Source: Williamsia muralis NBRC 105860 (lineage in GTDB: Bacteria > Actinomycetota > Actinomycetes > Mycobacteriales > Mycobacteriaceae). From it: DNA of 59,430 bases. Positions 35,013-58,783 of this stretch are shown piece by piece. The notes under the pieces were generated by a model, which did no database searches, had not been told where the DNA came from, and worked only from the letters and a program-made list of their open reading frames with translations. Every line of letters begins with the position of its first letter. The first letter of the stretch is position 1. The stretch is taken from the NCBI RefSeq assembly GCF_001598915.1, contig NZ_BDAP01000013.1:1-59430 (forward strand), written 5' to 3'. The position numbers were made by a program, and so were the translations under genes.

Positions 35013-35035
35013 AAATACTACGCCTGATAGTATTT
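35013..35035. promoter_or_regulatory. BlaI-like operator at copC1
   Basis: AAATACTA-CGCCTGA-TAGTATTT; the TACTA-N7-TAGTA core is 35016-35032 and the arms are 8 bp. It lies 8-30 bp upstream of the copC start and would overlap the -10 region. Confidence 0.75.
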
Positions 35036-35198
35036 GCGACAATCGGTGACCCTTCTCACTCAAAGATTCGTGAGACCGATGACCACCTCCGCAACTGCTG
35101 GCTTTGCATGACTGAATTGTCGCTCGCCTGCGACCAAGGGAGGCCACCATTGGGGTAGGTCGAGGGCGCGGCCTTGCAGTTTGAATGCTGAAGGCTGT

Positions 35199-36875
35199 CT
35201 AGGTGGGCAGTTGGTTCGGTAGTGCCTTGTCGGCTGGTCCGTCGACAAGAGCGTCCACCATCCGGGTGAAGTTTTCGCCCCATCCGGCTTGGTCGGTTCG
35301 GGCCAGCCCGGCCATTTCGACGGTGCATCGAGGATGCTCGGGTCCGGGTGTGGGTGTGATTCGGGCCCAGATCCGTCGGCGTTTGATCAGCAGGGAGATC
35401 AGCAGGCCGCCGAGCATGGCGATCGAGGACGCCAGCACCCATTTCTGGGCGGGATCGTGCGATACCTGCAGCGATACCCAGCGTTGGTAGCCGTCGAATT
35501 GGACGACTGTTCCGTCCGGCAGGCGGGTGTCTTGGCCGGCGAGGAGGTTGACGCGTTCTATTTTGAGGAGCCGGCCTTGGTTGATCATGTCGACGTTGAG
35601 GCTGTAAACATTTTGCGGTCTGCCGGTGTCGAGTCCGGTGTCGCCCTGATAGATGTCGATGGCCACAGCCGGGTTGTCCGGGATCGGCCACGCCGAGGTC
35701 ATCAAGCCGCCGTTGAAGACTGCGGTGGGTGCGAACAGTCCTTCCACGGCGATCTGTTTTGTCCGCCGCTCGTCCTCGTCGGGATACAGGCCAGCTGGCG
35801 TGTCGAAACGTGCGGCTCCACTAGACATCATTGTTTGCAGTTCGTCGGGCTGAAACGGGACGGTCTGGGTGCGGGTGCGGCCGTCAGGGAAAGTGACGGT
35901 GAACGTGGGCGCGAAGCCGTGGCCTAACAGGTAGACCCGATCGCCGGCCACGCGCAGTGGGTCGTTGACCTGGAGCGCTCGCTCGTTCCATTCATTCTTC
36001 GAGATCTCGTTGCCGCTCTGATATTTCAGGGTGGCGGTGTACATGTCGGGTTGTCCGGTCTCGAGGTAGCTGGCTTCAAACGCCTGCACCTGAATGCAGA
36101 ACTCGTTGAGGCTGGTGCCGTCGACGAGATTGCCGGCTCGGAACGAGTCGTACACGGCAGTGGAGGTGTTGCACAAGCCTTCTTGCCCGTCGGCAACCAA
36201 GATGCGGGTGCCCTCGTAGCCGAACATCTTGCCCGCGGCGATCGCCACGAGCAGGGCGAGCAACGAAAAGTGAAAGACGAGGTTGCCGAACTCCCGCAGG
36301 TACCCTTTCTCGGCCGACACTTCCACTACAGTGACCGAACCACGCTCTGAGCCAGGCCCGTGCACCGTGCGCACCGTTGTGCGCCACCCTTTTAGCCGTT
36401 GTTGGATTAGGGCTGCGGTCTGCTCGGGTGTGCCATCGGTGTCGCGAACTTCGTGCCGTGGCATCCGTGCAAGGTTGCGAGGTGCGGCGACCGGCCGAGC
36501 CCGTAGCGACTTGGCATGTTCGGCGATGCGGGGGGTCAGGCATCCCACCAGTGAGATGAACAGCAAAGCGTAGATGGAGGTGAACCAGATGCTGGAGAAG
36601 ACATCGAACATCTGAAGTCTGTCTAGAACGTCACCCACGGCGCCGTTGTCGGCGATGTACTGGGTGGTCTTCGTAGCGTTGAGGTCTCGCTGCGGCAGCA
36701 GGGCCCCGGGTACAGCAGCAATAGCGAGCAAGAACAGCAGTGCTAGGGCGGTGCGCATGGAGGTCAGTGACCGCCACAGGTTCCGGGCGGGCCAGAACAG
36801 GTAACGCTGCAAGTGCCGGGTCGCACGCTGGCGATCTGGCCGAGGCTTAATCAGTGTCGGCGTTGTCGTACTCAC
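35199..36875 (-). CDS. resB: ResB/Ccs1-family cytochrome c biogenesis protein
   Basis: The 558-aa protein has the ResB layout: membrane helices near residues 41-62 (TALALLFLLAIAAVPGALLP), 92-115 (SSIWFTSIYALLFISLVGCL) and 201-219 (GNLVFHFSLLALLVAIAAGK), a large extracytoplasmic domain, and a last helix near 500 (VLASSIAMLGGLLISLLIKR). ResB with CcsA forms the system II cytochrome c synthase. No ccsA is in the window, so it must use the host partner or act otherwise. It overlaps the thioredoxin gene upstream by 4 bp (ATGA). Clearly intact. Confidence 0.9.
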   Translation of the reverse strand: MSTTTPTLIKPRPDRQRATRHLQRYLFWPARNLWRSLTSMRTALALLFLLAIAAVPGALLPQRDLNATKTTQYIADNGAVGDVLDRLQMFDVFSSIWFTSIYALLFISLVGCLTPRIAEHAKSLRARPVAAPRNLARMPRHEVRDTDGTPEQTAALIQQRLKGWRTTVRTVHGPGSERGSVTVVEVSAEKGYLREFGNLVFHFSLLALLVAIAAGKMFGYEGTRILVADGQEGLCNTSTAVYDSFRAGNLVDGTSLNEFCIQVQAFEASYLETGQPDMYTATLKYQSGNEISKNEWNERALQVNDPLRVAGDRVYLLGHGFAPTFTVTFPDGRTRTQTVPFQPDELQTMMSSGAARFDTPAGLYPDEDERRTKQIAVEGLFAPTAVFNGGLMTSAWPIPDNPAVAIDIYQGDTGLDTGRPQNVYSLNVDMINQGRLLKIERVNLLAGQDTRLPDGTVVQFDGYQRWVSLQVSHDPAQKWVLASSIAMLGGLLISLLIKRRRIWARITPTPGPEHPRCTVEMAGLARTDQAGWGENFTRMVDALVDGPADKALPNQLPT

Positions 36876-37561
36876 AGCGTGAGTCCGAGATGGGTATTGA
36901 CTGCTTGGATCAACTCGTCCGTGGAGGCGAAGACCTGGGGCAGAACGGCAGCGACCGAACCATCAGCGCGCACAAGGACCGTCGAAGGATAGACGCGGGG
37001 AACACCCAGTGCGGCGGCCATCGCTGCGTCGGTGTCCACCACGGTGGGTAGATCCACACCAATGTCAATCAGCAAGTTCAGTGAAAGAAACGGATTCTGC
37101 GCGCCGTCGCTGCCTTGCACAGTTAGAACGTTGACGCGATCACCAGCAACGCGATCGAATTCGGCGAAGATCGGCAGCTCCTTGCGGCAGGGCGCGCACC
37201 AGTAGGCCCAAAAATTGATCACCCACATGGCGCCCGCGGTCGCGTTTCCGAGATCAACGTCCGAACCGTCCGACAAGCAGGGCACCCTCACACCTGCCAA
37301 GACCGAACTCGGGCGGGGTGTCTCGGTGCCCGATGGGCACGGGCTAAGGGCGGCCTTTTCTCGAGCGGCAGCCAGCTCTTCTGTGGGCACCTCAGCCTGC
37401 TCGCCGGGGAAAGCCTCCAAGGATTTAGTGCTGCCCGGGTTCGCCGCCGGACCCGGGTCTGTTGCATCACGCGGCCAAATCGCTGCTATCAATGCGAGCA
37501 CCACAATTAGAGCGGCAACTGTCCACCGAGTTGATGAAGACGTTGCGAGCCTTTGTCGCAT
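36872..37561 (-). CDS. membrane-anchored TlpA/ResA-like thioredoxin
   Basis: There is one N-terminal signal anchor (about 13-29, WTVAALIVVLALIAAIW), a linker, and a thioredoxin fold with WCAPC (C122 and C125) in VINFWAYWCAPCRKELPIF. Two more Cys (C75, C95) lie in the linker part and may form a second disulfide. TlpA-type proteins keep apocytochrome haem-binding Cys reduced or deliver copper to oxidase. It sits directly upstream of resB (ATGA overlap) and 5 bp after ctaD, so the order ctaD - tlpA - resB is one operon. A frameshifted paralogue lies at 32179-32830. Confidence 0.88.
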   Translation of the reverse strand: MRQRLATSSSTRWTVAALIVVLALIAAIWPRDATDPGPAANPGSTKSLEAFPGEQAEVPTEELAAAREKAALSPCPSGTETPRPSSVLAGVRVPCLSDGSDVDLGNATAGAMWVINFWAYWCAPCRKELPIFAEFDRVAGDRVNVLTVQGSDGAQNPFLSLNLLIDIGVDLPTVVDTDAAMAAALGVPRVYPSTVLVRADGSVAAVLPQVFASTDELIQAVNTHLGLTL

Positions 37562-37566
37562 TACTT

Positions 37567-39336
37567 TTACGTATTCGGGTCGGTTGACGATTCGTGAGTG
37601 CCAACCGTGAGCGGTTCGCGGCGAGCCTCTTCTGTCTTCTTGCTGCCGTGTCCCTTACCGACGTGGGCTTCAGCGCGCATACGGTCGACCATGTGCGGGT
37701 AGTGCAGCTCGAATGCGGGACGCTCGGAACGGATTCGGGGCAGTTCGGTGAAGTTGTGGCGTGGCGGTGGGCAGCTGGTCGCCCACTCTAGCGAGTTACC
37801 GAATCCCCAGGGGTCATCGACGGTAACGACCTCACCATATCGGTAGCTACGAAACACATTCCACAGGAATGGCAGCGTCGATGCGCCGAGAATAAATGCA
37901 CCGACGGAGGAGACTATATTCAGTGCGGTGAATCCGTCCGAGGCCAGGTAGTCGGCGTAGCGGCGTGGCATGCCTTCGTTGCCGAGCCAGTGCTGCACGA
38001 GGAATGTGGTATGGAACCCGATGAAGGTGAGCCAGAAATGGATCTTTCCAAGCTTTTCATCGAGCATGCGTCCGGTGATCTTGGGGAACCAGAAGTATAT
38101 ACCTGCGTAAGTAGCGAACACGATGGTGCCGAATAGGACGTAGTGGAAGTGCGCGACCACGAAGTAACTGTCCGAGAGCTGAAAGTCCAATGGTGGGCTG
38201 GCTAGCAGCACGCCGGTCAAGCCGCCGAACAGGAAGGTGACCAGGAACCCGATCGAGAACAGCATGGGGGCTTCGAAGGTGAGGTTTCCTTTCCACAGGG
38301 TGCCGATCCAGTTGAAGAACTTCACCCCGGTGGGTACTGCGATGAGGAAGGTCATGAACGAGAAGAACGGCAGCAATACCGCTCCCGTGGCGTACATGTG
38401 GTGGGCCCACACCGCCACTGACAGTGCCGCGATCGCCAGGGTGGCGTAGATCAATCCGGTGTACCCGAAGATCGGTTTGCGGGCGAAGACGGGGAAGATC
38501 TCTGAGACGATTCCGAAAAATGGCAGGGCGATGATGTACACCTCGGGGTGGCCGAAGAACCAGAACAAGTGCTGCCACAGAAGCGCGCCGCCGTTGGCGG
38601 GATCGAAGATGTTGCCGTCGAATTGCCGATCGAACTCCAGGGCCAGCAATGCCGCTGTCAACAGCGGAAACGCCAGCAAGATCAGCACACTGGTCACCAA
38701 GATGTTCCAGGTGAAGATCGGCATCCGGAACATCGTCATACCCGGCGCTCGTAGACACACCACCGTGGTGATCATGTTGACTGCCCCCAGGATGGTGCCC
38801 AACCCCGAAACCACAAGCCCCAAGATCCACATATCAGCACCAGGGCCCGGCGAGTGCACAGCGTCGGTCAACGGGGTGTAAGCGGTCCAGCCGAAGTCCG
38901 CAGCGCCGCCCGGGGTCATAAAGCCGGCCAACGCGACACTCGATCCGAACACGAAAAGCCAGAAGCTCATCGCGTTGAGGCGCGGAAACGCAACATCAGG
39001 GGCGCCGATTTGCAACGGCAGCACGACGTTCGCGAAGCCGATGACGATCGGGGTCGCATACATCAAGAGCATCACGGTGCCGTGCATGGTGAACATCTGG
39101 TTGTACTGCTCAGTGGACAGGAACTGCAACCCCGGTGCAGCTAGTTCGGTCCGAATCAACAGAGCCATCAATCCGCCGATGAGGAAGAACGCGAAGCACA
39201 CCACCAGGTACATCACGCCTAGCGTCTTGTGATCGGTGGTGGTGAGCATCTTGTAGATGAACGACCCTTTCGGGCCGGTACGAGCCGGGAACGGCCGCGC
39301 CGGTTCCACTTTCGCTGGTTCGTCCAAAAGACTCAT
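37567..39336 (-). CDS. ctaD: cytochrome c oxidase subunit I
   Basis: The start [16 protein letters not shown] (39336) is chosen over 39363. This is a full aa3-type subunit [15 protein letters not shown] near the start, [20 protein letters not shown] with the Cu(B) His and cross-linked Tyr, and [12 protein letters not shown] carrying haem and Cu(B) ligands. It reduces O2 and pumps protons with subunits II-III, which are not encoded here, so it would join the host's other subunits. Two BlaI-like dyads (39380-39396 and 39457-39473) lie upstream. It leads the operon with tlpA and resB, which fits coordinated haem/copper maturation. Confidence 0.94.
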
Positions 39337-39379
39337 ATGATCACCCAACTCACCGAGAACCAATCAACCGTCACACAGA

Positions 39380-39396
39380 TACTATGCAGCATAGTA
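39380..39396. promoter_or_regulatory. BlaI-like operator at ctaD, proximal
   Basis: TACTATGCAGCATAGTA, a perfect 17-bp dyad with the TACTA-N7-TAGTA core, 44 bp upstream of the ctaD start. Confidence 0.75.
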
Positions 39397-39456
39397 GTTA
39401 GGTGTACCAGCTCGGGGCAGGATCCAGACTGCATGGCCATCCCTAGTGAGGCTAAC

Positions 39457-39484
39457 TACTAGCCCGGATAGTATCCGGGCTAGT
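39457..39484. promoter_or_regulatory. BlaI-like operator overlapping a hairpin, distal at ctaD
   Basis: The core TACTA-GCCCGGA-TAGTA occupies 39457-39473. The same bases form the left arm and loop of a perfect 11-bp hairpin (39458-39468 with 39474-39484). It lies past the end of the DUF4229 gene, so it may also be that gene's terminator. Confidence 0.65.
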
Positions 39485-39595
39485 CCACCCAGTACCACGT
39501 TCGCGGACGGCACCGAACAGCTGGACCGCATTGTTGCTCTGTGCGTGACCTGAAGGCGACTGCTGTGGATGTAGGGAGAACCACATTGAAGGTCA

Positions 39596-39874
39596 CTACT
39601 GGAGGAAGGAGTCGCGCACGTTGCGTTCGGCGTCCACCGCAGCTATACCGTCATTGACCCGCTTGCGTAGGGGACGCAGAACGGATGCTGAAGCAGCAAG
39701 TGCGACGCCGAGTCCGCACATCATAGAAACGAAGAGGGGCACATCCACTCCCACCAGACGGCCACCGAAATAGACTATGGCCACCGTTAGGGCAACTGCA
39801 CCCAACCGGGCACCGTTAAGAACGATGACGTCGCGGATCAGCCGACTAGAGGCAAAGTCATACACGCCGCACAT
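39596..39874 (-). CDS. DUF4229-type small membrane protein, 92 aa
   Basis: The start MCGVYDFASSRLIRDVIVLN (39874) abuts a BlaI-like dyad, so a leaderless transcript is likely. It has two membrane helices (about 20-42 and 46-65) and then VLRPLRKRVNDGIAAVDAER, the charged C-terminal helix typical of DUF4229 proteins of actinobacteria. Function unknown. It precedes ctaD on the same strand by 260 bp. Confidence 0.65.
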   Translation of the reverse strand: MCGVYDFASSRLIRDVIVLNGARLGAVALTVAIVYFGGRLVGVDVPLFVSMMCGLGVALAASASVLRPLRKRVNDGIAAVDAERNVRDSFLQ

Positions 39875-39875
39875 A

Positions 39876-39894
39876 CTACTATCTACTATAGTAG
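39876..39894. promoter_or_regulatory. BlaI-like operator at DUF4229 gene
   Basis: CTACTAT-N5-ATAGTAG; the TACTA-N7-TAGTA core is 39877-39893. It starts 2 bp from the ATG and must overlap the promoter. Confidence 0.75.
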
Positions 39895-40172: not shown

Positions 40173-40189
40173 TACTATGCGAAATAGTA
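40173..40189. promoter_or_regulatory. BlaI-like operator at acyltransferase gene
   Basis: TACTATGCGAAATAGTA, the TACTA-N7-TAGTA dyad, 75 bp upstream of the GTG start. Confidence 0.72.
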
Positions 40190-40264
40190 TTATTCCGCGT
40201 TGCGATCGCGTCGAACTACCACGGCCAGCGCAGACGAGCAGCACAACGGAGAGTAGGGCAGCTA

Positions 40265-42463
40265 GTGGCACAACCGGGGACGGGCACCGCGCCGGCTACA
40301 ACCGTGAAGCAAGACCTGGCCGTTCCCGTCGAGTCTCACCGCCTCGATCTTGACGGGCTGCGCGGGGTTGCGATCATGCTGGTCGCGTGCTTTCACATCT
40401 GGTTAGGCCGTGTCTCAGGCGGTGTTGATGTCTTCTTGGTGTTGTCGGGCTACTTTTTTGTCGGATCACTCCTGCGGCATGTCACTGCCAGCCAGGCGCC
40501 CTCCGCCGGCTGGTGGTTCACGATTTCGCCAATCCCACGTCTGATCCGGTTGGTCCGCCGGTTAGTGCCGGCCTTGGCTGTGGTCCTGATCGCGGTCGTC
40601 ATCGGAACTGTAGTCGTCTTCCCTCAGACGCGATGGCTCACTACAGGGCGTGAGGTTGTGGCCAGTGCGCTGTACTACCAGAATTGGTATCTGGCCTTCA
40701 GGTCCCAGGACTACACCGCTGCAAGTTCGGTCAACAGCCCGTTGCAGCACGTGTGGTCCATGGCAGTGCAGGGCCAGTATTTTGTTGTCACATTGGTCAC
40801 GGGACTTTGTATCGGCGCTCTGCTCAAGCTCGCCGCCCGTAAAGTCTCGGCTGCGGCACATCCAGCGGTTTTACGCGTAATGGTAGGCATTGCGATCACT
40901 GGTGTGGCGGCGGTGTCGCTGTATTGGGCGACGATGCGGATGGAGGTCAACCAGCCGTTCAACTACTACGACACCGTTGCCCGAACCTGGGAACCGCTGG
41001 CCGGCGGTCTCATGGCTGTCTGGGCTCCGACGATCAAGTCTTGCCGGCTGCGCAGCGCGATGGCATTCACCGGCCTAGGGCTAATTCTGACCAGCGGCTG
41101 GTGGATAGACGGACTGCGAAGCTATCCTGGGCCCTGGGCCCTGGTCCCGGTCTTGGCCACGATGGCGCTAATTCTGTCCGGGAGCGTGAGTCGCGCGGCC
41201 GCAGGCAGTACAGGTACTCCCGTTAACCGGCTACTGGCAACCGCTGTCCCAGTCTGGTTGGGATCGATCGCCTACGCGATGTACTTATGGCACTGGCCGC
41301 TGCTGATATTTTATTTGTCCTGGAGCAAGTCCAATCATGCCGGCGTTGTTGGCGGCCTATTCGTTCTGAGCACGTCGATCGCTCTGGCATGGGGAACCTG
41401 CCGGTTTATCGAGCAACCCCTACGCGCGGGCTCGCACACCGCGCTTTCGACTGCGTCGTGCGACGTCACTGAGCAGGGTGGCCAGCTACGTCGTCGCAGA
41501 CCCATGACGTACACGAGCGTCACCGTAAGTCTGCTGCTCGTCGGAGTGCTGGCCTGCGGCGTTGCTATCAAAGTTTGGGACCATCATGTCAGTAGCCTTC
41601 GCGTCGACACTGCAAATCTCGACCCGACAATTTACCCTGGAGCTCGCGCCCTGCTCGACGGCATGCCAGTGGCACCCGTCGATCCGCAACCGTCGCCGCT
41701 CGAAGTGGTCAAAGACCTCCCCATCACATCGCTGCGGGGAGAAATTAGCGATTTCGCCGACCCGGAGGTCCGCGTGGGCACTTACGGAGATACCACCGCC
41801 AGCCGCACGATCGCGCTGGCCGGCGGGTCGCACTCCGAATTTTGGATTACTGCACTCGATGAGTTGGGAAAGAGAAACAATTTTAAGGTCACCACTTATC
41901 TCAAAATGGGATGCCCACTGTCAACCGACCCTATGCCCACCCAGCGGGGCGTTCCCTACCCCGGCTGTTTCGATTGGGTTCAACGAGCCATGCAACAGAT
42001 CATCGCGGATCGTCCAGACGCTGTCTTCACCACCACGACCCGACCTCGCGACACTGCTCCGGGAGACTGGGTTCCCCCGACCTATTTGCCAATCTTCGCC
42101 CGATTCGCCGCTGCGGGCATCCCCGTACTCGGCATGCGCGATACTGTCTGGCCGCACAACGACGACGGTCTCATCGATACCCCAACGTGTTTGGCCGAAG
42201 GCGGCAGCGCAAACGACTGCGGCACCCCACGATCGCTCGCGCTCGAACCGACCAATCCAACATTGGCGATCCTCGCCTCCAACCCCAACGTGTTGCCGCT
42301 AGACCTATCTGAAGGTTTATGCAATAAGAGCATGTGCCCCGCTGTGATCGGCAACATTGTCGTATACCACGACTGGCACCATCTCAGCGCAACCTTCGTG
42401 CGGAGTCTGACACCAGAGTTGTGGCGACAGATGCGTACATCCGTGCCGTGGCTTACGCCGTGA
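40265..42463 (+). CDS. OafA/OatA-like acyltransferase with SGNH domain
   Basis: The 732-aa protein has an N-terminal acyltransferase-3 membrane domain (DLDGLRGVAIMLVACFHIWL with the catalytic His in CFH, then GGVDVFLVLSGYFFVGSLL) with about ten or eleven helices. After a last helix near 430 comes an extracytoplasmic SGNH hydrolase-like domain (TIALAGGSHSEFWITALDEL, later YHDWHHLSATF carrying the Asp/His pair). Such proteins O-acetylate cell-wall sugars, for example peptidoglycan MurNAc in OatA. A BlaI-like dyad lies upstream. This supports a link of the regulon to the cell wall. The first catalytic residue of SGNH (GGSHS) is Ser. Confidence 0.85.
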   Translation: MAQPGTGTAPATTVKQDLAVPVESHRLDLDGLRGVAIMLVACFHIWLGRVSGGVDVFLVLSGYFFVGSLLRHVTASQAPSAGWWFTISPIPRLIRLVRRLVPALAVVLIAVVIGTVVVFPQTRWLTTGREVVASALYYQNWYLAFRSQDYTAASSVNSPLQHVWSMAVQGQYFVVTLVTGLCIGALLKLAARKVSAAAHPAVLRVMVGIAITGVAAVSLYWATMRMEVNQPFNYYDTVARTWEPLAGGLMAVWAPTIKSCRLRSAMAFTGLGLILTSGWWIDGLRSYPGPWALVPVLATMALILSGSVSRAAAGSTGTPVNRLLATAVPVWLGSIAYAMYLWHWPLLIFYLSWSKSNHAGVVGGLFVLSTSIALAWGTCRFIEQPLRAGSHTALSTASCDVTEQGGQLRRRRPMTYTSVTVSLLLVGVLACGVAIKVWDHHVSSLRVDTANLDPTIYPGARALLDGMPVAPVDPQPSPLEVVKDLPITSLRGEISDFADPEVRVGTYGDTTASRTIALAGGSHSEFWITALDELGKRNNFKVTTYLKMGCPLSTDPMPTQRGVPYPGCFDWVQRAMQQIIADRPDAVFTTTTRPRDTAPGDWVPPTYLPIFARFAAAGIPVLGMRDTVWPHNDDGLIDTPTCLAEGGSANDCGTPRSLALEPTNPTLAILASNPNVLPLDLSEGLCNKSMCPAVIGNIVVYHDWHHLSATFVRSLTPELWRQMRTSVPWLTP

Positions 42464-42828
42464 AAGGGCGGATGAGGCATCGAAGAAAGAAGCCTGGCGG
42501 GCCCAGCGGTGGTGCTCTAAACACGGCCCTCGGGCGAGTCGAGTGGACGACATGGCTGTTGACCGTCTTCGTCATCACGACTCATCAGGAGGTAAACCCG
42601 GGCAACGTCCTTCGCTGGGCGGTCACCACCATTCTCGCATGGCCCGGCAACACCCGACGCCCATGATCGATCGCGCCACTTGCCTCTGACCTGCCCAGAA
42701 CAAACGACACGGTTCCCCGTTCCGACACCGCCGCTGAACAACTAGCCAGGATAGTAGTAACCTGTCCGTGCTCTCCTCGATATCAAACCGTTTCCATCCT
42801 GCCCGCCGTTGGACTGAAGGACATTTCC
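42464..42828. other. intergenic region with BlaI-like operator
   Basis: This 365-bp gap has short frames without protein features. The only signal I see is a BlaI-like dyad with one mismatch (42740-42756) 72 bp before the TTG start of the M23 gene. Confidence 0.5.
42740..42756. promoter_or_regulatory. BlaI-like operator at M23 gene (one mismatch)
   Basis: AACTA-GCCAGGA-TAGTA, one mismatch from TACTA-N7-TAGTA, at the promoter position of the M23 peptidase. Confidence 0.55.
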
Positions 42829-44052: not shown

Positions 44053-44415
44053 ATGAAGCAATTGGGCACCCTGGAGGGTGACGTCATGAACGCCGTCTGG
44101 AATGGCGCTCCTGAAGCGCTGTCAGTGCACGACATCCTAGCCGTCTTGACCGACCGACAACTGGCGTACACCACCGTCTCGACCGTTATGACCAATCTCT
44201 ACGGCAAGGGCTTCCTGACCCGCAAAAAATTCGGCCGGGCATATCGATACTGCGCGACGTACAGCCGTGAAGAGGTGACCGCGCAAATCTTGCGCGGCAT
44301 ACTCCATTCCAGCGACGACCCCACAGCAGTCCTAGTTCACTTCGCACAAACCGCCTCCTCCGAAGAGACCGAGGCGCTACGCGATGGTCTGCCTGGAAAA
44401 CGGCTCCGCCAATGA
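44053..44415 (+). CDS. blaI: BlaI/MecI-family repressor 1
   Basis: The 120-aa winged-helix repressor starts MKQLGTLEGDVMNAVWNGAP. The family pattern is clear: LEGDVMNAVW, LSVHDILAVLTDRQLAYTTV, STVMTNLYGKGFLTRKKFGR, YSREEVTAQILRGIL. BlaI-type repressors dimerise on dyads and are cut, or released, when the cognate M56 sensor protease is activated. Its stop overlaps the M56 gene (ATGA). It is about 60-70 percent similar by eye to blaI2 at 52817. The repressor is the best candidate to bind the TACTA-N7-TAGTA sites nearby. Confidence 0.9.
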   Translation: MKQLGTLEGDVMNAVWNGAPEALSVHDILAVLTDRQLAYTTVSTVMTNLYGKGFLTRKKFGRAYRYCATYSREEVTAQILRGILHSSDDPTAVLVHFAQTASSEETEALRDGLPGKRLRQ

Positions 44416-47243: not shown

Positions 47244-47858
47244 TCAGGTTTCGTCGGCCAGGCGTTGCACGACGGGCAAGAGATCCGCGGCGGTGACCGC
47301 CCGCAAAAACACCGCCGCCGCTCGGTGCTGGCGGTCCAAGACAACGGTGGTGGGTACCACTGACGTTGGGGTTCCCAGCGCGGCGAGGGTGCGTCCGTCG
47401 TAGTCGTAGATCGACGGGTAGGTCACCGCGCGGTCGACCACGAAATCGCGGGCTGTTTCTTTGCGGTCTCGAAAGTCGATCCCCAAGAACGCAACTCCGC
47501 GTTCTTTGGTTTGGGCGTAGACCTCTTCGAGTACCGGGGCCTCAGCGCGGCAGGGTCCGCACCATGAGCCCCACACGTTGATCACGACCACTTGCCCGGT
47601 GTAGTCGTCCAGGCGAATGGTCTTCTGATCAGCGAACAGATCGGGGCCACGCAGCGCGGCAACCTTCTGGCGACTGGCGGGCGGATCGTAGAAGATGACA
47701 GTTTGCCCGTTCGGGGAAACGAACTCGAACGAATCGCCTTGGCGGACCGCATCATCGCCGGTACCGCACCCAGCGAGGGCCAGTGTGAGGGCCGCCACCA
47801 CCGCGATGGCCCATCGCCACCTGGGGCGCGACGGTGGTGACGATGTCGTGGTGGTCAT
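47244..47858 (-). CDS. TlpA/ResA-like thioredoxin lipoprotein
   Basis: A lipobox LALAGC (C31) follows a Sec signal peptide. The thioredoxin fold has WGSWCGPCRAEAPVLEEVYA (C100 and C103) and the cis-Pro region PTSVVPTTVVLD. Likely roles are reduction of apocytochrome c or CuA-site Cys, or copper delivery with CtaG. It overlaps ctaG by 4 bp (ATGA) and follows it. It is not close to the TlpA-like protein of module 1, which has a different linker and two extra Cys. Confidence 0.9.
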   Translation of the reverse strand: MTTTTSSPPSRPRWRWAIAVVAALTLALAGCGTGDDAVRQGDSFEFVSPNGQTVIFYDPPASRQKVAALRGPDLFADQKTIRLDDYTGQVVVINVWGSWCGPCRAEAPVLEEVYAQTKERGVAFLGIDFRDRKETARDFVVDRAVTYPSIYDYDGRTLAALGTPTSVVPTTVVLDRQHRAAAVFLRAVTAADLLPVVQRLADET

Positions 47859-48799
47859 CGGCTGCTTCCCAACTGACGAAGAAAACGGTTGTAGGACTCG
47901 AGCTCGTCGTCGTGCTGCGCGGTCTGGGCCGCGGTGGCAGCAGAGGACATCTTTTCTTCATCGCGGCGCCACCGGGAGGCGAAGACCAGCACGATCAGCA
48001 ACGCCACTGGCTCGCCGTAGGACCACGCCAGCGCTCCGGCGATGGACTGGTCCTCGACCGGATCGATGCCCCACTGCGGCGGTGGGTCAGCGAAGCTGGC
48101 TACCAGGACGGTCGGCGACATCATGAACACCACTCCGAAGAACACGTGTAGCGGCATCTCCAAGAAGATGTCGAGGAGCCGTCCGATGTTCGATTGTCGT
48201 CGCGGCAGCGGACCGATCGAGAGAATCGGGATGATGAACAGCAGACCGCTGACGAGGAAGAACACTTCCATGGCGGTGTGGCCGACCCAGGTGGTGTTGA
48301 GGGCATCGAAGATCGGTGACAGATACAGACCGTAGAAACTGAACAAGAACACCGGGATCGCGAAACCCGGGTGCAGCAGCACCCGGCTCGGCAGTGACCT
48401 GGCCGCGCGGAGGATGGCTCGCCGGATACTTCTGCCCGTGCCCTGGTTCGGTACCACGGCAAAGAGCAGCAACCCGGGTGAGCCCAGGACCAGTAGCGGG
48501 GGGACCAGGGTGGATAGGGTCATGTGCTGGAACATGAAGGCGCTGAACAGTCCGAGACCATAGCTTTCGATGGCCAGCCCGGTGACCGCGATCAGGATGA
48601 GGCACCCGGCCAGAAAACTCACCGAACGATGCCACGGCCATCGTCGACCCTGCCGGCGTAGCCGCAGCAAGGCCGCACAGTAAGCAGCTCCAAGCACAGC
48701 GCCCACCGCGGGCAACAGCGGAATCGCGGGCAGGTCCCATCCGACCATCGCCAGGAGGTTCGGCGGCGCCTGGGGCAAGTCCATCAACGCAACGCCCAT
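47855..48799 (-). CDS. CtaG-type cytochrome c oxidase assembly protein
   Basis: The 314-aa membrane protein is of the caa3_CtaG family. Several helices are visible, with QHMTLSTLVPPLLVLGSPGL, VGHTAMEVFFLVSGLLFIIP and LEMPLHVFFGVVFMM. The His in these helices are the likely copper ligands. It corresponds to the C-terminal half of the CopD-CtaG fusion at 30077. It is divergent from the dsbA-like gene with a BlaI-like dyad (48874-48892) between, 75 bp from its start (MDLPQAPPN at 48784 is an alternative start). Confidence 0.87.
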   Translation of the reverse strand: MGVALMDLPQAPPNLLAMVGWDLPAIPLLPAVGAVLGAAYCAALLRLRRQGRRWPWHRSVSFLAGCLILIAVTGLAIESYGLGLFSAFMFQHMTLSTLVPPLLVLGSPGLLLFAVVPNQGTGRSIRRAILRAARSLPSRVLLHPGFAIPVFLFSFYGLYLSPIFDALNTTWVGHTAMEVFFLVSGLLFIIPILSIGPLPRRQSNIGRLLDIFLEMPLHVFFGVVFMMSPTVLVASFADPPPQWGIDPVEDQSIAGALAWSYGEPVALLIVLVFASRWRRDEEKMSSAATAAQTAQHDDELESYNRFLRQLGSSR

Positions 48800-48873: not shown

Positions 48874-48892
48874 CTACTAAGCATCGTAGTAG
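48874..48892. promoter_or_regulatory. BlaI-like operator between ctaG and dsbA-like gene
   Basis: CTACTA-AGCATCG-TAGTAG; the core is 48875-48891. It lies between two divergent genes and could control both. Confidence 0.75.
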
Positions 48893-48957
48893 CACGAAGT
48901 GAGGAGCGATGACTTGACTGTGTACCGCGGTGGTGTTGCTGTGACCGGGGCCTGCTG

Positions 48958-49596
48958 ATGAGCCGTAGCGTTAAGGTCACCTTGGGGGTGGTGTTTGCAT
49001 TCTGCCTGGCTTTGACCGCAGTGTTCGTGGTGACCCGGGCCGGTGACACCGCTACCGAGTCCGACGGCGCGGTGGTGCGTTCGGACTCGCAACGGTTGAC
49101 CTCGCCGGCGGACTCTGAGGCCACGTTCGTCGAGTTCCTAGACTTTGAATGTGAGGCGTGTGGGGCCATGTACCCCGCCGTGGAGCAACTGCGCCAAACG
49201 TACGGTGACAGGGTCACGTTCGTGGTTCGATACTTTCCGTTGCCGGGCCATTTCAACGCCGACCGGGCGGCGCGGGCGGTGGTCGCGGCTGCGAACCAGG
49301 GCCGGTTTGAGGCGATGTACCGGAAGATGTTCGACAGCCAAAAACAGTGGGGTGAACAGCAGGTGCCGTTGGATGATTTGTTCGCGTCCTACGCCGCCGA
49401 CCTCGGCCTGGACATGACTCAGTTCCAGGCCGACTACACATCCTCGGCCACACGGGCGCGCATCGATGCCGACCTGCGCGACGGCGCCGAACTGGGGGTC
49501 CGCGGCACCCCAACCTTCTTCATTGACGACGCTGAGGTGGAGGCCGGCAGCTACGATCAACTCAAGGCCGCATTGAACGACGCTCTGGCACAGTGA
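48958..49596 (+). CDS. DsbA-like thiol-disulfide oxidoreductase
   Basis: An N-terminal signal anchor (about 5-27, VKVTLGVVFAFCLALTAVFV) precedes a DsbA/thioredoxin_4 domain with CEAC (C65 and C68) in FVEFLDFECEACGAMYPAVE and the cis-Pro loop GVRGTPTFFIDD. It should insert disulfides into exported proteins. The next gene encodes VKOR and overlaps (GTGA), giving the complete DsbA-VKOR oxidising pair of actinobacteria. A BlaI-like dyad lies 66 bp upstream. Confidence 0.9.
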   Translation: MSRSVKVTLGVVFAFCLALTAVFVVTRAGDTATESDGAVVRSDSQRLTSPADSEATFVEFLDFECEACGAMYPAVEQLRQTYGDRVTFVVRYFPLPGHFNADRAARAVVAAANQGRFEAMYRKMFDSQKQWGEQQVPLDDLFASYAADLGLDMTQFQADYTSSATRARIDADLRDGAELGVRGTPTFFIDDAEVEAGSYDQLKAALNDALAQ

Positions 49597-50243
49597 CTTC
49601 GATGTCGTCGCACCTGTCCGGCACCGGTGATGATCCAGGTGTGCGGAACGATCCTGGGGGACGCGCTGTGCTGTTTCCGCGGTTGCTTCGGTGGGTGCTG
49701 GGCGTGTGCGGGGTCATCGGCCTGATCGCAGCGTTCACGCTGACGGTGGAAAAGTTCGAGCTGGCCACCGACCCGGACTACACCCCCACCTGCAGCCTCA
49801 ACCCCATTGTGAACTGCGGGTCGATCATGGATACCCCGCAGGCTGCGGTGTTCGGTTTTCCCAATTCTCTGCTGGGTATCGCCGGGTTCACCGCTGTCCT
49901 CGCGATCGCAGTGCTGCTCACCCCCGCCACTCCCGCCTGGATATGGATCAGCACCCAGGTGGGGTTGAGCGCGGCCGTGGTGTTCGTCCATTGGCTGATC
50001 GTGCAGAGCTTGTACGAGATCGGGGCGCTGTGCCCGTATTGCATGGCGGTATGGATCGTGGTGGTGGTGGCGTTCTGGTACGTCACCCTGCGCAACCTTG
50101 ACCAGATGATCGTCAGGGGCCGGGCACGGCGTCTGGTCGATGCATTGATCAGTGTGCACTCGGTGGTCCCGGTCGTGTGGGCGCTGAGCATCCTCACGCT
50201 CATCATCATCGAGTTCTGGTGGTACTGGTCCACTCTGGGCTGA
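49593..50243 (+). CDS. vitamin K epoxide reductase (VKOR)-like protein
   Basis: The five-helix membrane protein has the two Cys pairs of VKOR: CSLNPIVNCGS in the loop after helix 1 and CPYC (C147-C150) in helix 4. The Ser in CGS before helix 2 is also conserved. It re-oxidises DsbA and passes electrons to quinone. GTG start overlaps the dsbA-like stop; an ATG 9 bp further on is an alternative. At 216 aa it is of normal length and without a fused thioredoxin domain. Confidence 0.92.
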   Translation: MTSMSSHLSGTGDDPGVRNDPGGRAVLFPRLLRWVLGVCGVIGLIAAFTLTVEKFELATDPDYTPTCSLNPIVNCGSIMDTPQAAVFGFPNSLLGIAGFTAVLAIAVLLTPATPAWIWISTQVGLSAAVVFVHWLIVQSLYEIGALCPYCMAVWIVVVVAFWYVTLRNLDQMIVRGRARRLVDALISVHSVVPVVWALSILTLIIIEFWWYWSTLG

Positions 50244-50283
50244 CCTCGTACTCCTCACCGACGCACGCGCGCCTGGGGTGGGG

Positions 50284-51090
50284 TTAGATCGGCAGGGTGG
50301 TGTCGGTGATGAACATGTCCCGGACCCACACCACAAAGTGGTCCCAGATGCCGGTGATCAGCGCGATACCCACCGCCACCATCAGCAGCCCGCCCACTAT
50401 CTGGATGCGCCGCGAATTGCGCCGCAACACGCCCACAGCCCGCACCGCCCACGCCGAGCCAAACGCCATCGCCACGAACGGCAGCCCCAAACCCAGGCAG
50501 TACGCCACGATCATCGCCACCCCCCGAGCCGCGGTGGTGTCAGCGGTACCGCTGGCGGTGGCGATGATCGCCGCCAGCGTCGGCCCCAGACACGGGGTCC
50601 ACCCCAAAGCGAACACCCCGCCCAACAGCGGGGCACCCACCAGGTGCGATACCTGACGAGGATGAAACCGCGCCTCCCGTTGCAGGACAGGAAAAGCACC
50701 GATAAACACCAGCCCCATCACAATGGTGATGACGCCACCGACGCGCTGAAGAATCTCGCGATTGACGATCAACGTCGAGGTGACACCAAAAATGGTGGCG
50801 GTGGCCAACACGAACACCACAGTGAACCCGGCGACAAACAATAGTGCAGCACCGGCCACCCGGAACCGCCGAATACCCTGCAGCGCATGACCGTCCGCCT
50901 CCGGGGAGTTTCCGCCTGCGGAAATGCCGACGAGATAGGACACATACCCGGGCACGAGCGGAATGACACAGGGTGAGGCGAACGAGATGAGTCCGGCCGC
51001 CAGGCATGCACCCAGCGCCAGAAGCAGCGGCCCACCGGCCGCTGCGGTCGAGAACGCCTCGCCTACCCCGGCCACCGCAAAGTCGGACAC
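50284..51090 (-). CDS. ccdA: CcdA-family thiol-reducing electron carrier
   Basis: I pick the GTG at 51090 ([17 protein letters not shown]) because AGGAGG lies 6 nt upstream; the longer reading (51117) has no such site. Six helices; [19 protein letters not shown] (Cys in helix 1) and [14 protein letters not shown] (Cys in helix 4) are the CcdA redox pair. CcdA brings reducing power to periplasmic thioredoxins such as TlpA/ResA and thus serves cytochrome c maturation. A strong BlaI-like dyad lies upstream. It is convergent with the VKOR gene: oxidising and reducing paths face each other. Confidence 0.93.
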
Positions 51091-51137
51091 CTGCGCCCTC
51101 CTCGCTGTTTCGTGCACACACCGGACACGACCACCCT

Positions 51138-51160
51138 AACTACTACGCACAATAGTAGTT
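51138..51160. promoter_or_regulatory. BlaI-like operator at ccdA
   Basis: AACTACTA-CGCACAA-TAGTAGTT; 8-bp arms, core 51141-51157. It lies 48 bp before the chosen ccdA start. Confidence 0.78.
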
Positions 51161-51219
51161 TTGTTCGGGGTGTATTCACACCCACGGACAGACGGCGTGC
51201 CCGCGCGGAGCGGCACGAA

Positions 51220-52491
51220 TTAGAGCGCGCTGCCGGCTACCCAGGTGTCCCAGGGCACGCTCCAGTCGCCGTTTTGCCACAGTTCCAAGGCAGGCCCGCC
51301 GGTGTTGCGCACTTCCACAACGTCGCCGGTGACCGAGAAGTCGTAGAACCACCGGGCGTTGTCGGGGTTGAGGTTCAGACAGCCGGCGGACATGTTGGTA
51401 TTGCCTTGCTGGGCAATGGTATCGACGAGCTCGTGCAAGTAGATACCGTCGTTGCTGATGCGGGTGGCGTAGTTGATCGATTGGCGATATCCGAGTCGAG
51501 AGTTCACCGGTAGCCCGTAGGTGGAGGAGTCCATGATGACCGGATTGGCCTTGTCCAGGACGGTGTAGATGCCCGGCTGAGTCCAAAAGTGGATGGTGCG
51601 GCCGTTCACCGTTTCGGTGCCGCCGCGGCCCATCGAGGTCGGCATGGTGCGCACCAGTTCCCCGTTGGCGTACACCGATACCTGCTTGGTGGTGTCATCG
51701 GCAATCGAGACGTGGGCATCGCCGATCGTGAAGGACACGCGCACGTCTTCTTGGCCGTATAGTCCGTTGCCCAGGTCCACTCCGTAGACGTCGGCTGCCA
51801 CGGTGACCGCGGTGCCCGGTGCGTAGTAGTCGCGGGGCCGGTAGTGCGCGGTCTGATCATCGATCCAGTTCCATTGCCCTTCGACCGCCGGCTCGGTCTG
51901 CACTGACAGCGCTCGTTGGGCCGCGGCCCGGTCGGTGATCGGCTCATCGAACCGTACGGCCACCACCAGCCCTACCCCGTAGGCGCGTCCGGAACTGAGC
52001 GTGCCGCCGCCAGTCGTCAACAGCGACGGTTGCGTCAGGTTGTTCGGTGCGACCGTGGTGAACGCACTGGTGTGGTCGGCGGTCCGGCCTTGGGCGTCGG
52101 TACTTGTTGCGACCAGCTCATAGGTTTTGTTGTAGCCCAACGGCGTATCGGGTTTCCATGTCAGCCGGTCGGGGGTCATGATCCCTGGGATGAGGCGACC
52201 GTCGTCGTTGGTCATCACCACCTCCGCCAGGGTGCCGCCGGTGACGGTCACCATCACCGCGGTGAGCGGGTCGACATCGCGGGCACCGGGCGCGGGAGCA
52301 AATGTCACGGCGGGCGCGTCCACCGATGCCGACGCCCCCGAACGCGACGGCGGTGAGGAGGATCCCCCGTTACTGGAAGAGCACGCTGCTGCCACGCCAG
52401 TGATCAGCGCGCCGGCCCCGGCCACGAGCACACTCCGGCGATTGAGCTGCACCCCATTCCACCCAGACCGCTGCGTCGGCACTAAGAACAC
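51220..52491 (-). CDS. L,D-transpeptidase lipoprotein (LdtMt2-like)
   Basis: A twin-arginine-like signal with lipobox (NRRSVLVAGAGALITGVAAA, then C) anchors the protein. Two Ig-like domains follow (about 60-260), then a YkuD catalytic domain with YLHELVDTIAQQGNTN and SAGCLNL, nucleophile about C371. This is the layout of mycobacterial LdtMt2. It makes 3-3 peptidoglycan cross-links and is little affected by most penicillins. A perfect BlaI-like dyad lies 13 bp upstream of the GTG start (52491), and blaI2 is divergent from it. That puts a beta-lactam-relevant wall enzyme under likely BlaI control. Confidence 0.9.
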   Translation of the reverse strand: MFLVPTQRSGWNGVQLNRRSVLVAGAGALITGVAAACSSSNGGSSSPPSRSGASASVDAPAVTFAPAPGARDVDPLTAVMVTVTGGTLAEVVMTNDDGRLIPGIMTPDRLTWKPDTPLGYNKTYELVATSTDAQGRTADHTSAFTTVAPNNLTQPSLLTTGGGTLSSGRAYGVGLVVAVRFDEPITDRAAAQRALSVQTEPAVEGQWNWIDDQTAHYRPRDYYAPGTAVTVAADVYGVDLGNGLYGQEDVRVSFTIGDAHVSIADDTTKQVSVYANGELVRTMPTSMGRGGTETVNGRTIHFWTQPGIYTVLDKANPVIMDSSTYGLPVNSRLGYRQSINYATRISNDGIYLHELVDTIAQQGNTNMSAGCLNLNPDNARWFYDFSVTGDVVEVRNTGGPALELWQNGDWSVPWDTWVAGSAL

Positions 52492-52503
52492 TCCTCCGTC
52501 GTG

Positions 52504-52524
52504 ACTACTAGGACGATTAGTAGT
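52504..52524. promoter_or_regulatory. BlaI-like operator at L,D-transpeptidase gene
   Basis: ACTACTA-GGACGAT-TAGTAGT; core 52506-52522. It starts 13 bp upstream of the L,D-transpeptidase start and lies about 300 bp from blaI2. Confidence 0.76.
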
Positions 52525-52816
52525 TTACGGAACCAGAGCGGACATACCGGACACCGACGAAAACATTCGACAGGCCACGTTACGGGATCTCAACCCTGAT
52601 TGAACCAAGGTCGGGAATTGCCGGCTATCCACTTGCGGTAACGAGACGGTGCGCCACCGCACCACGCGGTGGTGGGAGTTTGCCGTCGGGTGCGGCAGTG
52701 GAACCGATGGAGGGCGGCACAGAAAACTCGATCCGGTGCAATGGTTAGGCAGCTGCGGCGTCGAGGTCGGATGAGCCTCGGTGGACGGGCCCCGACGTGG
52801 CAGAGACAATAAAGGT

Positions 52817-53179
52817 ATGAAACGGCTGGGAGCACTCGAAGCGGACGTCATGGACGTCCTGTGGAGCGCCGGACCGCAACCGCAGTCGGTGCACGATATC
52901 CTCGATGCTCTTGCGGATCGGCAGTTGGCGTACACCACCATCTTGACCGTCGTGACGAACCTGCACACCAAGGGTTTCCTCAACCGCGTCAAGGTGAGCC
53001 GTGCGTACCTGTACTCACCGGTGCAGACCAGGGAAGAAGCCACCTCCCAGGCCCTGCGAGACATCCTCGATCGCAGTGACGATTCGGCGGCGGTGCTGAT
53101 GCATTTCGCCCAAACCGCCACCCCCGCAGAACAAGACGCTCTACGGAAAAGTCTTCGCACCAAGCAGGCTCGGCGGTGA
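52817..53179 (+). CDS. blaI: BlaI/MecI-family repressor 2
   Basis: The protein has 120 aa, starting MKRLGALEADVMDVLWSAGP. It has the same pattern as blaI1: PQSVHDILDALADRQLAYTT, TVVTNLHTKGFLNRVKVSRA, and QTREEATSQALRDILDRS. The recognition region (LAYTTILTVVTNLHTKGFL) is nearly that of blaI1 (LAYTTVSTVMTNLYGKGFL), so both may bind the same dyads. GTGA overlap couples it to the M56 gene. The 290 bp upstream contain no TACTA dyad except the one at the L,D-transpeptidase promoter. Confidence 0.9.
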   Translation: MKRLGALEADVMDVLWSAGPQPQSVHDILDALADRQLAYTTILTVVTNLHTKGFLNRVKVSRAYLYSPVQTREEATSQALRDILDRSDDSAAVLMHFAQTATPAEQDALRKSLRTKQARR

Positions 53180-54147
53180 CCCTGGCCCTCACCCTGGGAC
53201 TGGCCGCGGCACTGATCGCAGTGCTGATGCCGCGGCTGTTGCTGCGTCCCCTGGCGACCACCGCGCCCAGGTCGATGGTCGCGCTCTGGCTGGGCAGTAT
53301 CGCCGCGTTCTTCCTCCTCGCCGTCTCGGCGGTGGTCGTGGCCGCCTGGCCCCGCCACGCTCCCGGAGAAAGCCTCACCGACGTGTGGATCCGCTGTTTG
53401 AGCTCAGCGCAACACACCATGCGTCCCTGGGTCACCGAGATCATCATCTCGGTCGCAGTGGCCGTGGCTTCCTATATCGCGGTTCGGGTCGCGATCGTCA
53501 GCAGTCGCCACCGTCGCTCGCGCCTTCAACTATTGGACTATCACCACGACATCGTGACCGTGCTGGCGCGCACCGGCCAGCAGGACGGGCCGTACCCGAT
53601 CCTGTGGCTCGATCATCCATTGCCCTTCGCCTACAGCATCGCCGGCAACCCCGGATTCGTCGTCGCCACCGAAGGCCTGAAAAAGTGTTTGACCTCCTCA
53701 GAGGCTCAAGCCGTACTCGACCACGAAAGGGCCCACCTCAACGGCCGCCACCACCGCATCCTCGCAGTCTGCGAAGTGCTGGCCAGCGCGCTGCCGTTCG
53801 TGCCGTTGATGACCCAAGCGCCGACCGCGATCGCGGCCCTGGTCGAACTCGACGCCGATCAGACCGCCGCCACCGCCAGTGGCGCCGCAGTCCTACGGTC
53901 AGCGTTGAGCCGGGTTATCGAACAACAACAAAGCACAATCACCCCCCGCCCCAGCCAGGGCTGCGCCACGCACAGAGCCCACACCACCACCGACCGCCGA
54001 CTACGCACCCTGGGTGCTCCCCTCACCCCACACCCGACCGCGCTGACCTACACCGCGTACGCCGTGATGCCCGCGGCCATCGCGGCCACCGCCGCAGTGG
54101 CGACCATGGCCGCGCTCTCAGCCCTCTTCTGCACCATCGTGTCCTGA
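53176..54147 (+). CDS. M56-family membrane metalloprotease 2 (BlaR1-like, no sensor domain)
   Basis: GTG start overlapping the blaI2 stop. HERAH (183-187) and VELDADQ (about 224) are the zinc ligands. The membrane helices and the conserved block YPILWLDHPLPFAYSIAGNP match the module 1 protein closely. As there, no penicillin-binding domain is present, so the signal must be sensed otherwise. The 3' end overlaps that of the convergent copC2 by 30 bp. Confidence 0.88.
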   Translation: MTLALTLGLAAALIAVLMPRLLLRPLATTAPRSMVALWLGSIAAFFLLAVSAVVVAAWPRHAPGESLTDVWIRCLSSAQHTMRPWVTEIIISVAVAVASYIAVRVAIVSSRHRRSRLQLLDYHHDIVTVLARTGQQDGPYPILWLDHPLPFAYSIAGNPGFVVATEGLKKCLTSSEAQAVLDHERAHLNGRHHRILAVCEVLASALPFVPLMTQAPTAIAALVELDADQTAATASGAAVLRSALSRVIEQQQSTITPRPSQGCATHRAHTTTDRRLRTLGAPLTPHPTALTYTAYAVMPAAIAATAAVATMAALSALFCTIVS

Positions 54148-54903
54148 CCTATCGCCCTTCGGAGGCTGATCAGAGTCAGGAGTTGGCGATGCCGGGGGTT
54201 GCGGCGTCGTCGCTGAAGGCTCCGCCGGCGGCGGCACTGCCTTGTTGTGGTCATCCTTGTCGTGGTCATCGCGGGAGTGCAGCACCAACAGCAGCGCAAT
54301 CGCGCCCAACCCCGCCACGACCAGAACGATCACCACCATCACCACCCAGTTATCTGCCAGCTTGCCCTCGGGATCATCGCCGGGATGCAAACCTGTTGAC
54401 GGACTTGTCGACGCCGGCACACCCGTCACCGTGCCCGCTGGCGGTGGCGGTTCAACACCTGTCGCCGAGGGCACCGACGCGGTCGGCGCTGACGACGACG
54501 GGGCCACCGAAAAAGCGACCTGGCCCGTGATCGGATGTCCGTCCGCAGAGACCACCCGGTAATTCACGGTGTAGGCACCCGAACCCAGAGCGGTTTGCAC
54601 CTTGACACTGACCTGCGCTCCGGTGACCGCCGGGGCAGATACCTGCACCGGCTCGCCCTCAGTGCTCAGGACCGCTACCTCGGCAAAATTTTTGGAGATG
54701 GACTGGTTGAACACCAAATCAATCGTTGCCGGAGCCTGTTCCAGGACCGCCCCATCGGTCGGGGTCGACGATGTCAGCGCACTATGCGCCGACGCCTGCC
54801 CCACACCCAGCAGCAACGTGCCCACTGCGGCGAGCGCGGCAATCGCGACCAGCCTTCCTACAGTCACCAGCCATGACGCGCGTCCAGATTCGTGTTGTCC
54901 CAC
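54118..54903 (-). CDS. copC: CopC-domain copper-binding protein 2
   Basis: Signal peptide ending QASA-HSAL, again leaving the ligand His at the mature N-terminus. CopC core (SSTPTDGAVLEQAPATIDLV, FNQSISKNFAEVAVLSTEGE, TALGSGAYTVNYRVVSADGH), then a long Pro/Thr linker, a membrane helix (about 185-207) and a His/Asp-rich tail (HSRDDHDKDDHNK) that may bind metal on the inner side. It is 261 aa, longer than copC1. A perfect BlaI-like dyad lies 8 bp upstream of the start. Confidence 0.88.
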   Translation of the reverse strand: MGQHESGRASWLVTVGRLVAIAALAAVGTLLLGVGQASAHSALTSSTPTDGAVLEQAPATIDLVFNQSISKNFAEVAVLSTEGEPVQVSAPAVTGAQVSVKVQTALGSGAYTVNYRVVSADGHPITGQVAFSVAPSSSAPTASVPSATGVEPPPPAGTVTGVPASTSPSTGLHPGDDPEGKLADNWVVMVVIVLVVAGLGAIALLLVLHSRDDHDKDDHNKAVPPPAEPSATTPQPPASPTPDSDQPPKGDRSGHDGAEEG

Positions 54904-54910
54904 GCCGCGA

Positions 54911-54933
54911 AACTACTATACGAAGTAGTAGTT
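54911..54933. promoter_or_regulatory. BlaI-like operator at copC2
   Basis: AACTACTA-TACGAAG-TAGTAGTT; 8-bp arms, core 54914-54930, at the same distance from the start (8 bp) as in copC1. Confidence 0.78.

Positions 54934-58513: not shown

Positions 58514-58783
<270 letters not shown>

Follow-up and report, generated by a model that had tools for sequence, protein, structure and literature searches.

We have analyzed a recurrent dyad, TACTA-N7-TAGTA, on a 59,430-bp contig of Williamsia muralis NBRC 105860, hereafter the window, which is one whole contig (C13) of a 22-contig, 5.54-Mb draft genome. Judged from its sequence and distribution, the dyad is almost certainly the operator of BlaI-family repressors. 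Two BlaI-M56 pairs encoded among the sites most likely repress a spare set of genes that serve cytochrome aa3, the delivery of copper, disulfide chemistry and the maintenance of the envelope. The account as a whole, in which the two pairs hold down an accessory regulon until the M56 membrane proteases trigger its release, appears quite probable.

The dyad in the window and in the host genome

Nine exact copies of the dyad are present in the window, all confined to 35016-54930 (Table 1), and a copy with one mismatch lies at 42740. An earlier note on this DNA had listed these ten sites, and every coordinate is correct. Its statement that the dyad is absent elsewhere in the window holds for exact matches, but a further one-mismatch dyad at 40673, within the acyltransferase reading frame, had gone unmentioned. 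When up to two mismatches are allowed, the window has 17 dyads against 1.88 expected from shuffles. TACTA-N7-TAGTA ranks first in the window among 21,504 pentamer dyads (1024 half-sites at 21 spacings), with 9 occurrences against 5 for the runner-up; among the 630 dyads that share its half-site composition, the runner-up has 3. Positions 1-34000 and 56000-59430 contain no exact dyad, at near-equal GC (0.627, 0.618, 0.619). The extended consensus of the window sites is AACTACTA-N7-TAGTAGTT. They are placed a short distance upstream of start codons; the copy at 39877 lies within the longest DUF4229 reading frame, and counts as upstream of this gene only with a later start codon.

Genome-wide, the exact dyad is found at 11 places and its backward-read control at 10; at up to one mismatch the counts are 19 and 205, respectively. 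Nine of the 11 exact sites fall within about 20 kb (binomial p = 5e-21, for a region picked post hoc), and the other two precede cydAB and the ATP synthase operon. The dyad is thus not equally frequent at random sites of the host genome. Chance or base composition as its source was ruled out by the permuted dyads, the backward pattern at up to one mismatch, and the near-equal GC outside the cluster. The site at C1:1028809 is 23 bp before the start of cydA (Pfam Cyt_bd_oxida_I), with cydB next (identified by eye from its translation), and that at C6:336867 has a glycosyltransferase-like frame (by eye) on one side and atpI-atpB (Pfam ATP-synt_I, ATP-synt_A) on the other. In two published reports, M. 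tuberculosis BlaI is described as binding the cydAB and ATP synthase promoters (PMC5473688), and both repression and gel-shift binding are described for Rv1303, which is co-transcribed with the ATP synthase genes (PMC12565901). The motif of the accessory cluster thus turns up on the host chromosome at two promoters for which there is independent evidence of a link to BlaI.

Six further chromosomal dyads have one mismatch. One of them (G000 C3:388807, L228:1508) is about 95 bp ahead of a gene of the UbiA family, which we read as ctaB, encoding heme O synthase; the other five, as judged by eye, are inside reading frames or have no obvious link. The chromosomal BlaI-M56 pair adjoins gnd-like and urease-like genes (by eye), a neighbourhood also found in the Rv1846c region. 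Its blaI promoter (L018:2944-2960) contains TGTAGGCTAGCCTTACC, which resembles an IdeR iron box. Another report places blaI in the IdeR regulon (PMC7924339).

Conservation in related loci and association with BlaI genes

The two chromosomal sites are widely conserved. Among relatives of the same order, a dyad with at most one mismatch was found within 200 bp upstream of cydA in 22 of 29 loci (13 exact; 7 genera), the set being the best 30 of 84 genomes with a match, minus the host's own. Upstream of atpB, at 200-900 bp, it was found in 12 of 23 (8 exact). Here 28 of 61 genomes matched, from which the host, its close relative G108 and three weak matches (L115-L117) were excluded; two of these weak loci carry exact sites. 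Permuted half-sites at the same tolerance gave a mean of 0.03 (maximum 1) at cydA and 0.14 (maximum 3) at atpB.

The dyad is also abundant around BlaI genes. Eighty named BlaI loci (1.49 Mb) contain 100 exact dyads, distributed over 43 loci and with 8 of them in L118, a near-copy of the window; 29 permuted half-sites yielded 2 matches in all. A set of 88 related loci was compiled from 9 plasmid stretches and 79 named loci, with the window and L118 excluded. In this set a dyad with at most one mismatch lies in the 300 bp upstream of 215 of 666 labelled genes (an exact one for 110 of them), against a mean of 1.0 and at most 4 labelled genes for permuted half-sites. These counts take in labelled genes only; of 128 exact sites, a total that includes the window and L118, 29 could be assigned to no labelled gene. 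For oxidase and cytochrome genes the rates were 19/23 (CtaD), 7/9 (ResB), 5/20 (CtaG), 12/24 (CopD-CtaG) and 1/14 (CcsB); for copper and metal genes, 14/20 (CopC), 14/25 (CDF), 3/33 (Cu ATPase) and 0/7 (Zn/Cd ATPase); for disulfide genes, 12/20 (DsbA), 7/21 (TlpA) and 5/17 (CcdA); and for envelope and lipoprotein genes, 27/48 (M23), 9/14 (RipC), 5/11 (L,D-transpeptidase), 6/9 (LspA) and 11/17 (Lnt). BlaI itself scored 30/99, DUF3105 8/11, Rieske 0/12 and DUF305 1/39. The usual second genes of operons lack a site (M56 0/89, VKOR 0/11). Gene order varies among the plasmids, so that the sites track genes rather than one conserved block. In four loci (L186 Fodinicola, L190 Catenulispora, L191 Nocardioides and L197 Actinospica) a cydA-like gene starts beside blaI in the opposite direction.

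An exact dyad precedes the aligned blaI start by 43-45 bp in 8 genomes (5 genera). This is a lower bound, at least 10 of the 47 entered BlaI genes having a site, 8 of them at that distance. Across 61 genomes of the family, the motif occurs in 47 of the 53 whose PF03965 match exceeds the cut-off and in 1 of the other 8 (p = 2.8e-5; G131, whose only match is below the cut-off, is counted among the latter). The backward control outnumbers the motif 40 to 1 in the eight BlaI-less genomes and 410 to 170 in the other 53. The fixed distance, the co-occurrence and the conservation at the same gene types together back the assignment to BlaI that the earlier note had made from half-site resemblance. In a Tsukamurella plasmid stretch with ctaD and no annotated BlaI (L026), no site at up to one mismatch was found.

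Several results weigh against this account. The exact dyad is absent in 6 of the 53 BlaI-bearing genomes, and the eight BlaI-less genomes are mostly small (1.9-3.7 Mb), which is a confounder, although they show no depletion of the backward control. No dyad at up to one mismatch is present in the scanned stretch of 11 of 23 atpB and 7 of 29 cydA loci. The host chromosomal blaI, like the CDF and CopD-CtaG genes of the window, has no site within three mismatches. Mycolicibacterium-type plasmids with a different BlaI clade contain only 0, 1, 1 and 2 exact sites (L024, L025, L022 and L029). The locus counts ignore kinship between loci. As to the proteases, M56-1 has no fold match at E 0.001 or better, and both window M56 proteins miss the Pfam M56 profile PF05569 at E 0.001, although the chromosomal BlaR matches it.

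The accessory cluster, its repressors and their candidate signal

The predicted sites and the genes of the cluster are listed in Table 1. Matches to PF03965 (Penicillinase_R) exceed the cut-off for both window repressors and for the chromosomal BlaI (E 8.7e-27). The closest named relatives of BlaI1, L118 aside, are from Williamsia, and its best solved relative by sequence, 2g9w, is Rv1846c. M56-1 and M56-2 are 323-325 amino acids long and match only M48 in Pfam, which finds no penicillin-binding domain in either, as the earlier note had said. One report gives the same for mycobacterial BlaR (PMC5473688). An HExxH motif and a distal Glu (H184, E185, H188 and E225) are invariant in an alignment of 66 M56 sequences. 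The AlphaFold 2 model of M56-1 has long helices (mean predicted local distance difference test score 88.8). Its top Foldseek matches are the Zn peptidase 3c37 (E 0.004), BlaR1 8exp (probability 1.00, E 0.01, TM 0.34) and Ste24 proteins, the BlaR1 and Ste24 matches having E values of 0.01-0.04 and low TM-scores. NCBIfam returned only HtpX models, far below cut-off.

Table 1. Predicted operators and genes of the copper, oxidase, disulfide and envelope cluster (window coordinates)
Feature	Position	Strand	Basis or remark
Predicted BlaI-type operator, copC1	35016..35032		exact match; 10 bp before copC1 start
Predicted operator 1, ctaD-tlpA-resB	39380..39396		exact match
Predicted operator 2, ctaD-tlpA-resB	39457..39473		exact match
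Predicted operator, DUF4229 gene (given later start)	39877..39893		exact match
Predicted operator, acyltransferase-SGNH gene	40173..40189		exact match
Predicted operator, M23-blaI1-M56-1	42740..42756		1 mismatch; M23 genes elsewhere with site, 27/48
Predicted operator between divergent ctaG-tlpA2 and dsbA-VKOR	48875..48891		exact match
Predicted operator, ccdA	51141..51157		exact match
Predicted operator, L,D-transpeptidase, intergenic region common with blaI2	52506..52522		exact match
Predicted operator, copC2	54914..54930		exact match
copC1	34406..35005	-	Pfam CopC PF04234
resB, cytochrome c biogenesis	35199..36875	-	Pfam ResB PF05140
TlpA/ResA-like thioredoxin	36872..37561	-	Pfam Redoxin
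ctaD, cytochrome aa3 subunit I, extra copy	37567..39336	-	Pfam COX1
DUF4229	39596..39829	-	Pfam PF14012
Acyltransferase-3 with SGNH domain	40265..42463	+	Pfam
M23 peptidase	42829..44010	+	Pfam PF01551
blaI1 repressor	44053..44415	+	Pfam PF03965, E 4.6e-22; nearest solved structure in sequence, 2g9w
M56-1, BlaR1-like membrane protease without penicillin-binding domain	44412..45389	+	Pfam M48; AlphaFold 2 model; Foldseek
TlpA2	47244..47858	-	Pfam AhpC-TSA/Redoxin
ctaG, oxidase assembly	47855..48799	-	Pfam Caa3_CtaG
DsbA-like thioredoxin	48958..49596	+	Pfam Thioredoxin_4/DSBA
VKOR	49593..50243	+	Pfam PF07884
ccdA	50284..51117	-	Pfam DsbD_TM
L,D-transpeptidase with Ig domain	51220..52491	-	Pfam Big_10 + YkuD
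blaI2 repressor	52811..53179	+	57-58% identity to blaI1
M56-2 protease	53176..54147	+	Pfam M48; 55% identity to M56-1
copC2	54118..54903	-	Pfam CopC

To the left of the cluster, positions 24740-32182 contain no exact dyad and encode a Zn/Cd-type P-type ATPase, LspA, Nramp and a CopD-CtaG fusion (LspA and Nramp by eye). By eye, a TlpA-like frame adjoining the CopD-CtaG gene (32204-32803) seems truncated or frameshifted at its C-terminus, and a single frame at 22901-24340, with an MMPL-like N-terminus and a type I restriction specificity-like C-terminus, is an apparent fusion at a rearrangement.

The cluster is accessory, since the close relative G108 (97.3% identity to the host at the cydA locus, 95.7% at the atp locus) has only two dyads, both chromosomal, and one BlaI of the chromosomal type; the cluster and the extra BlaI genes are absent. 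It is present in another close relative, the L118 record (NZ_JNYV01000010.1), which matches the window at 99.56% identity over 20,365 bases. That record is labelled Kitasatospora arboriphila NRRL B-24581, and the initial part of its AtpB agrees fully with the host's over 150 amino acids; from both identities, it is probable that the organism name is mistaken or that the culture was mixed. Related clusters are found on plasmids of Rhodococcus, Gordonia and Mycolicibacterium, among them pROB01 of Rhodococcus opacus B4. A second copy of the extra ctaD, 90% identical, runs off the end of contig C12. As replicon features, the window contig has a ParB-like match below cut-off and a DnaB N-terminal domain; its ends do not overlap.

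We propose that the M23-blaI1-M56-1 and blaI2-M56-2 pairs would repress a scattered regulon consisting of ctaD with TlpA and ResB, ctaG, DsbA-VKOR, ccdA, the two copC genes, and the L,D-transpeptidase, M23, acyltransferase and DUF4229 genes, with autoregulation of M23-blaI1-M56-1 likely through the site at 42740. BlaI dimers would sit over the -10/start region. Activation of the M56 membrane protease at the outer face would lead to inactivation of BlaI, and the set then expressed could serve as a spare or repair kit for cytochrome aa3 as well as envelope proteins that depend on cysteine or copper. Binding, cleavage and induction are predicted here from the family, and occlusion and cross-talk are predictions as well. 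The cluster operator is identical to that of the host cydAB and ATP synthase promoters, so that the BlaI proteins of the cluster probably have binding sites in common with those of the host.

In M56-1, a loop that joins the second long helix to the third contains His64, Cys77 and His83; from charges and helices, our reading is that it lies on the extracytoplasmic side. AlphaFold confidence is low in this loop (53 for residues 61-70, 60 for 71-80), so that ligand geometry is not judgeable. A loose His-Cys-His pattern occurs in 50 of 91 M56 rows: 42/61 in loci with a copper-related gene against 8/30 in loci without (p = 2.6e-4, with kinship ignored and several proteins counted per locus). It is absent from all 7 M56 rows of cydA loci, from the host chromosomal M56 and from 6 of 29 CtaD-linked M56 rows. 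The conserved loop suggests copper, another soft metal or the thiol state. Our guess, somewhat likely in our view, is that the trigger lies jointly among excess of copper or another soft metal, copper shortage and disulfide stress. Copper is the leading candidate because of these loop data and the Synechocystis PetR-PetP precedent, in which a BlaI-family factor and a copper-dependent BlaR1-family protease are reported to match electron carriers to the copper supply (PMC7896320, commentary). Excess and shortage are indistinguishable here, and disulfide or wall stress are the alternatives. A bolder and on balance doubtful extension is that a respiratory rescue regulon travels on mobile elements of actinomycetes: its M56 protease would sense copper, another soft metal or the thiol state directly through the His-Cys-His loop, and its repressors would also target the promoters of the host's bd oxidase and ATP synthase; a plasmid or island would then rewire host respiration.

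Alternative explanations and comparison with known systems

It is conceivable, though improbable, that the chromosomal BlaI mainly reads the sites, BlaI1 and BlaI2 having other targets or only fine-tuning. G108, with only the chromosomal BlaI, has the same exact dyad at cydA and atp, and no site belongs to BlaI2 alone: within three mismatches, the only one for blaI2 (52811) is that at 52506, in the gap between it and the divergent L,D-transpeptidase gene. However, the window repressors read LAYTT(V/I)xTV(M/V)TNL where the chromosomal protein reads LAYTTVMTVLQRLAKK, and site clusters go with cluster-type BlaI genes in many species. The half-sites also differ, cydA sites leaning to TACTAC-N5-GTAGTA and cluster sites to TACTAT, but this argument is weak, as atp sites too read TACTAT. 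We think it similarly unlikely that the regulon answers beta-lactams or peptidoglycan damage as in classical BlaI-BlaR1, with the oxidase genes secondary. The sites at the M23, RipC and L,D-transpeptidase genes would fit such a role, as would the rise of M. tuberculosis blaI-blaR and cydAB under amoxicillin-clavulanate described in one paper (PMC5473688). The lack of a penicillin-binding sensor domain in the M56 proteins argues against classical beta-lactam sensing, and the labelled site genes besides BlaI are mostly those of oxidase, copper or metal, disulfide and lipoprotein maturation functions, with M23 and RipC as the main exceptions. No site lies near the three genes annotated as serine hydrolases in L022, L024 and L025, beta-lactamase genes being outside the label set.

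The half-sites TACTAT and TAGTAT resemble -10 boxes, and when the sites are oriented by their genes, the half farther from the gene is TACTAT in 46 of 56, the mirror half in 33 of 56 (Fisher p = 0.012). This bias gives modest support to the suggestion, made in the earlier note, that the operator is laid over the -10 box. It would also be expected if the dyads were sigma-factor promoter elements rather than repressor sites, which we regard as very improbable: the palindrome is complete, with an AAC...GTT extension and a fixed N7 spacing, the dyad co-occurs with BlaI genes, and no position is clearly enriched at the expected -35 place. Repressor sites read by the cluster BlaI proteins are our preferred explanation.

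Of the known systems, S. aureus BlaI/MecI-BlaR1 shares the repressor family (1sd4, 1okr) and, by a weak match, the protease fold (8exp). It differs in the penicillin-binding sensor domain of BlaR1, which the M56 proteins lack, and in its beta-lactamase and PBP2a targets, none of which turned up here, where no systematic search was made. Synechocystis PetR-PetP likewise pairs a BlaI factor with a BlaR1-type protease; according to a commentary, it controls four proteins in a cyanobacterium (PMC7896320), whereas the predicted regulon of the actinomycetes is larger, accessory, and concerned with respiration and the envelope. A literature search found, among the matches listed and with few subscription papers covered, no description of a mobile copper-oxidase-disulfide-envelope BlaI regulon. 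With about ten predicted target promoters and a conserved candidate ligand site, the cluster makes the trigger of a sensor-less actinobacterial BlaR testable by reporters; being accessory, the system is also removable. The cluster further points to mobile elements as carriers of extra oxidase, copper and disulfide machinery, controlled by a switch that is tied into the host respiratory regulon.

BlaI at respiratory promoters is already published for M. tuberculosis, and the nearest system is its BlaI-BlaR pair (Rv1846c-Rv1845c). As described in the two reports (PMC5473688, PMC12565901), it shares the repressor family, a membrane protease without sensor domain, and cydAB and ATP synthase as targets. 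In W. muralis, by comparison, about ten promoters of an accessory cluster (ctaD, copC, ccdA, dsbA, resB and wall genes) also carry the site, and there are two extra BlaI-M56 pairs, whose M56 proteins have the putatively extracytoplasmic His-Cys-His loop that the host chromosomal one lacks.

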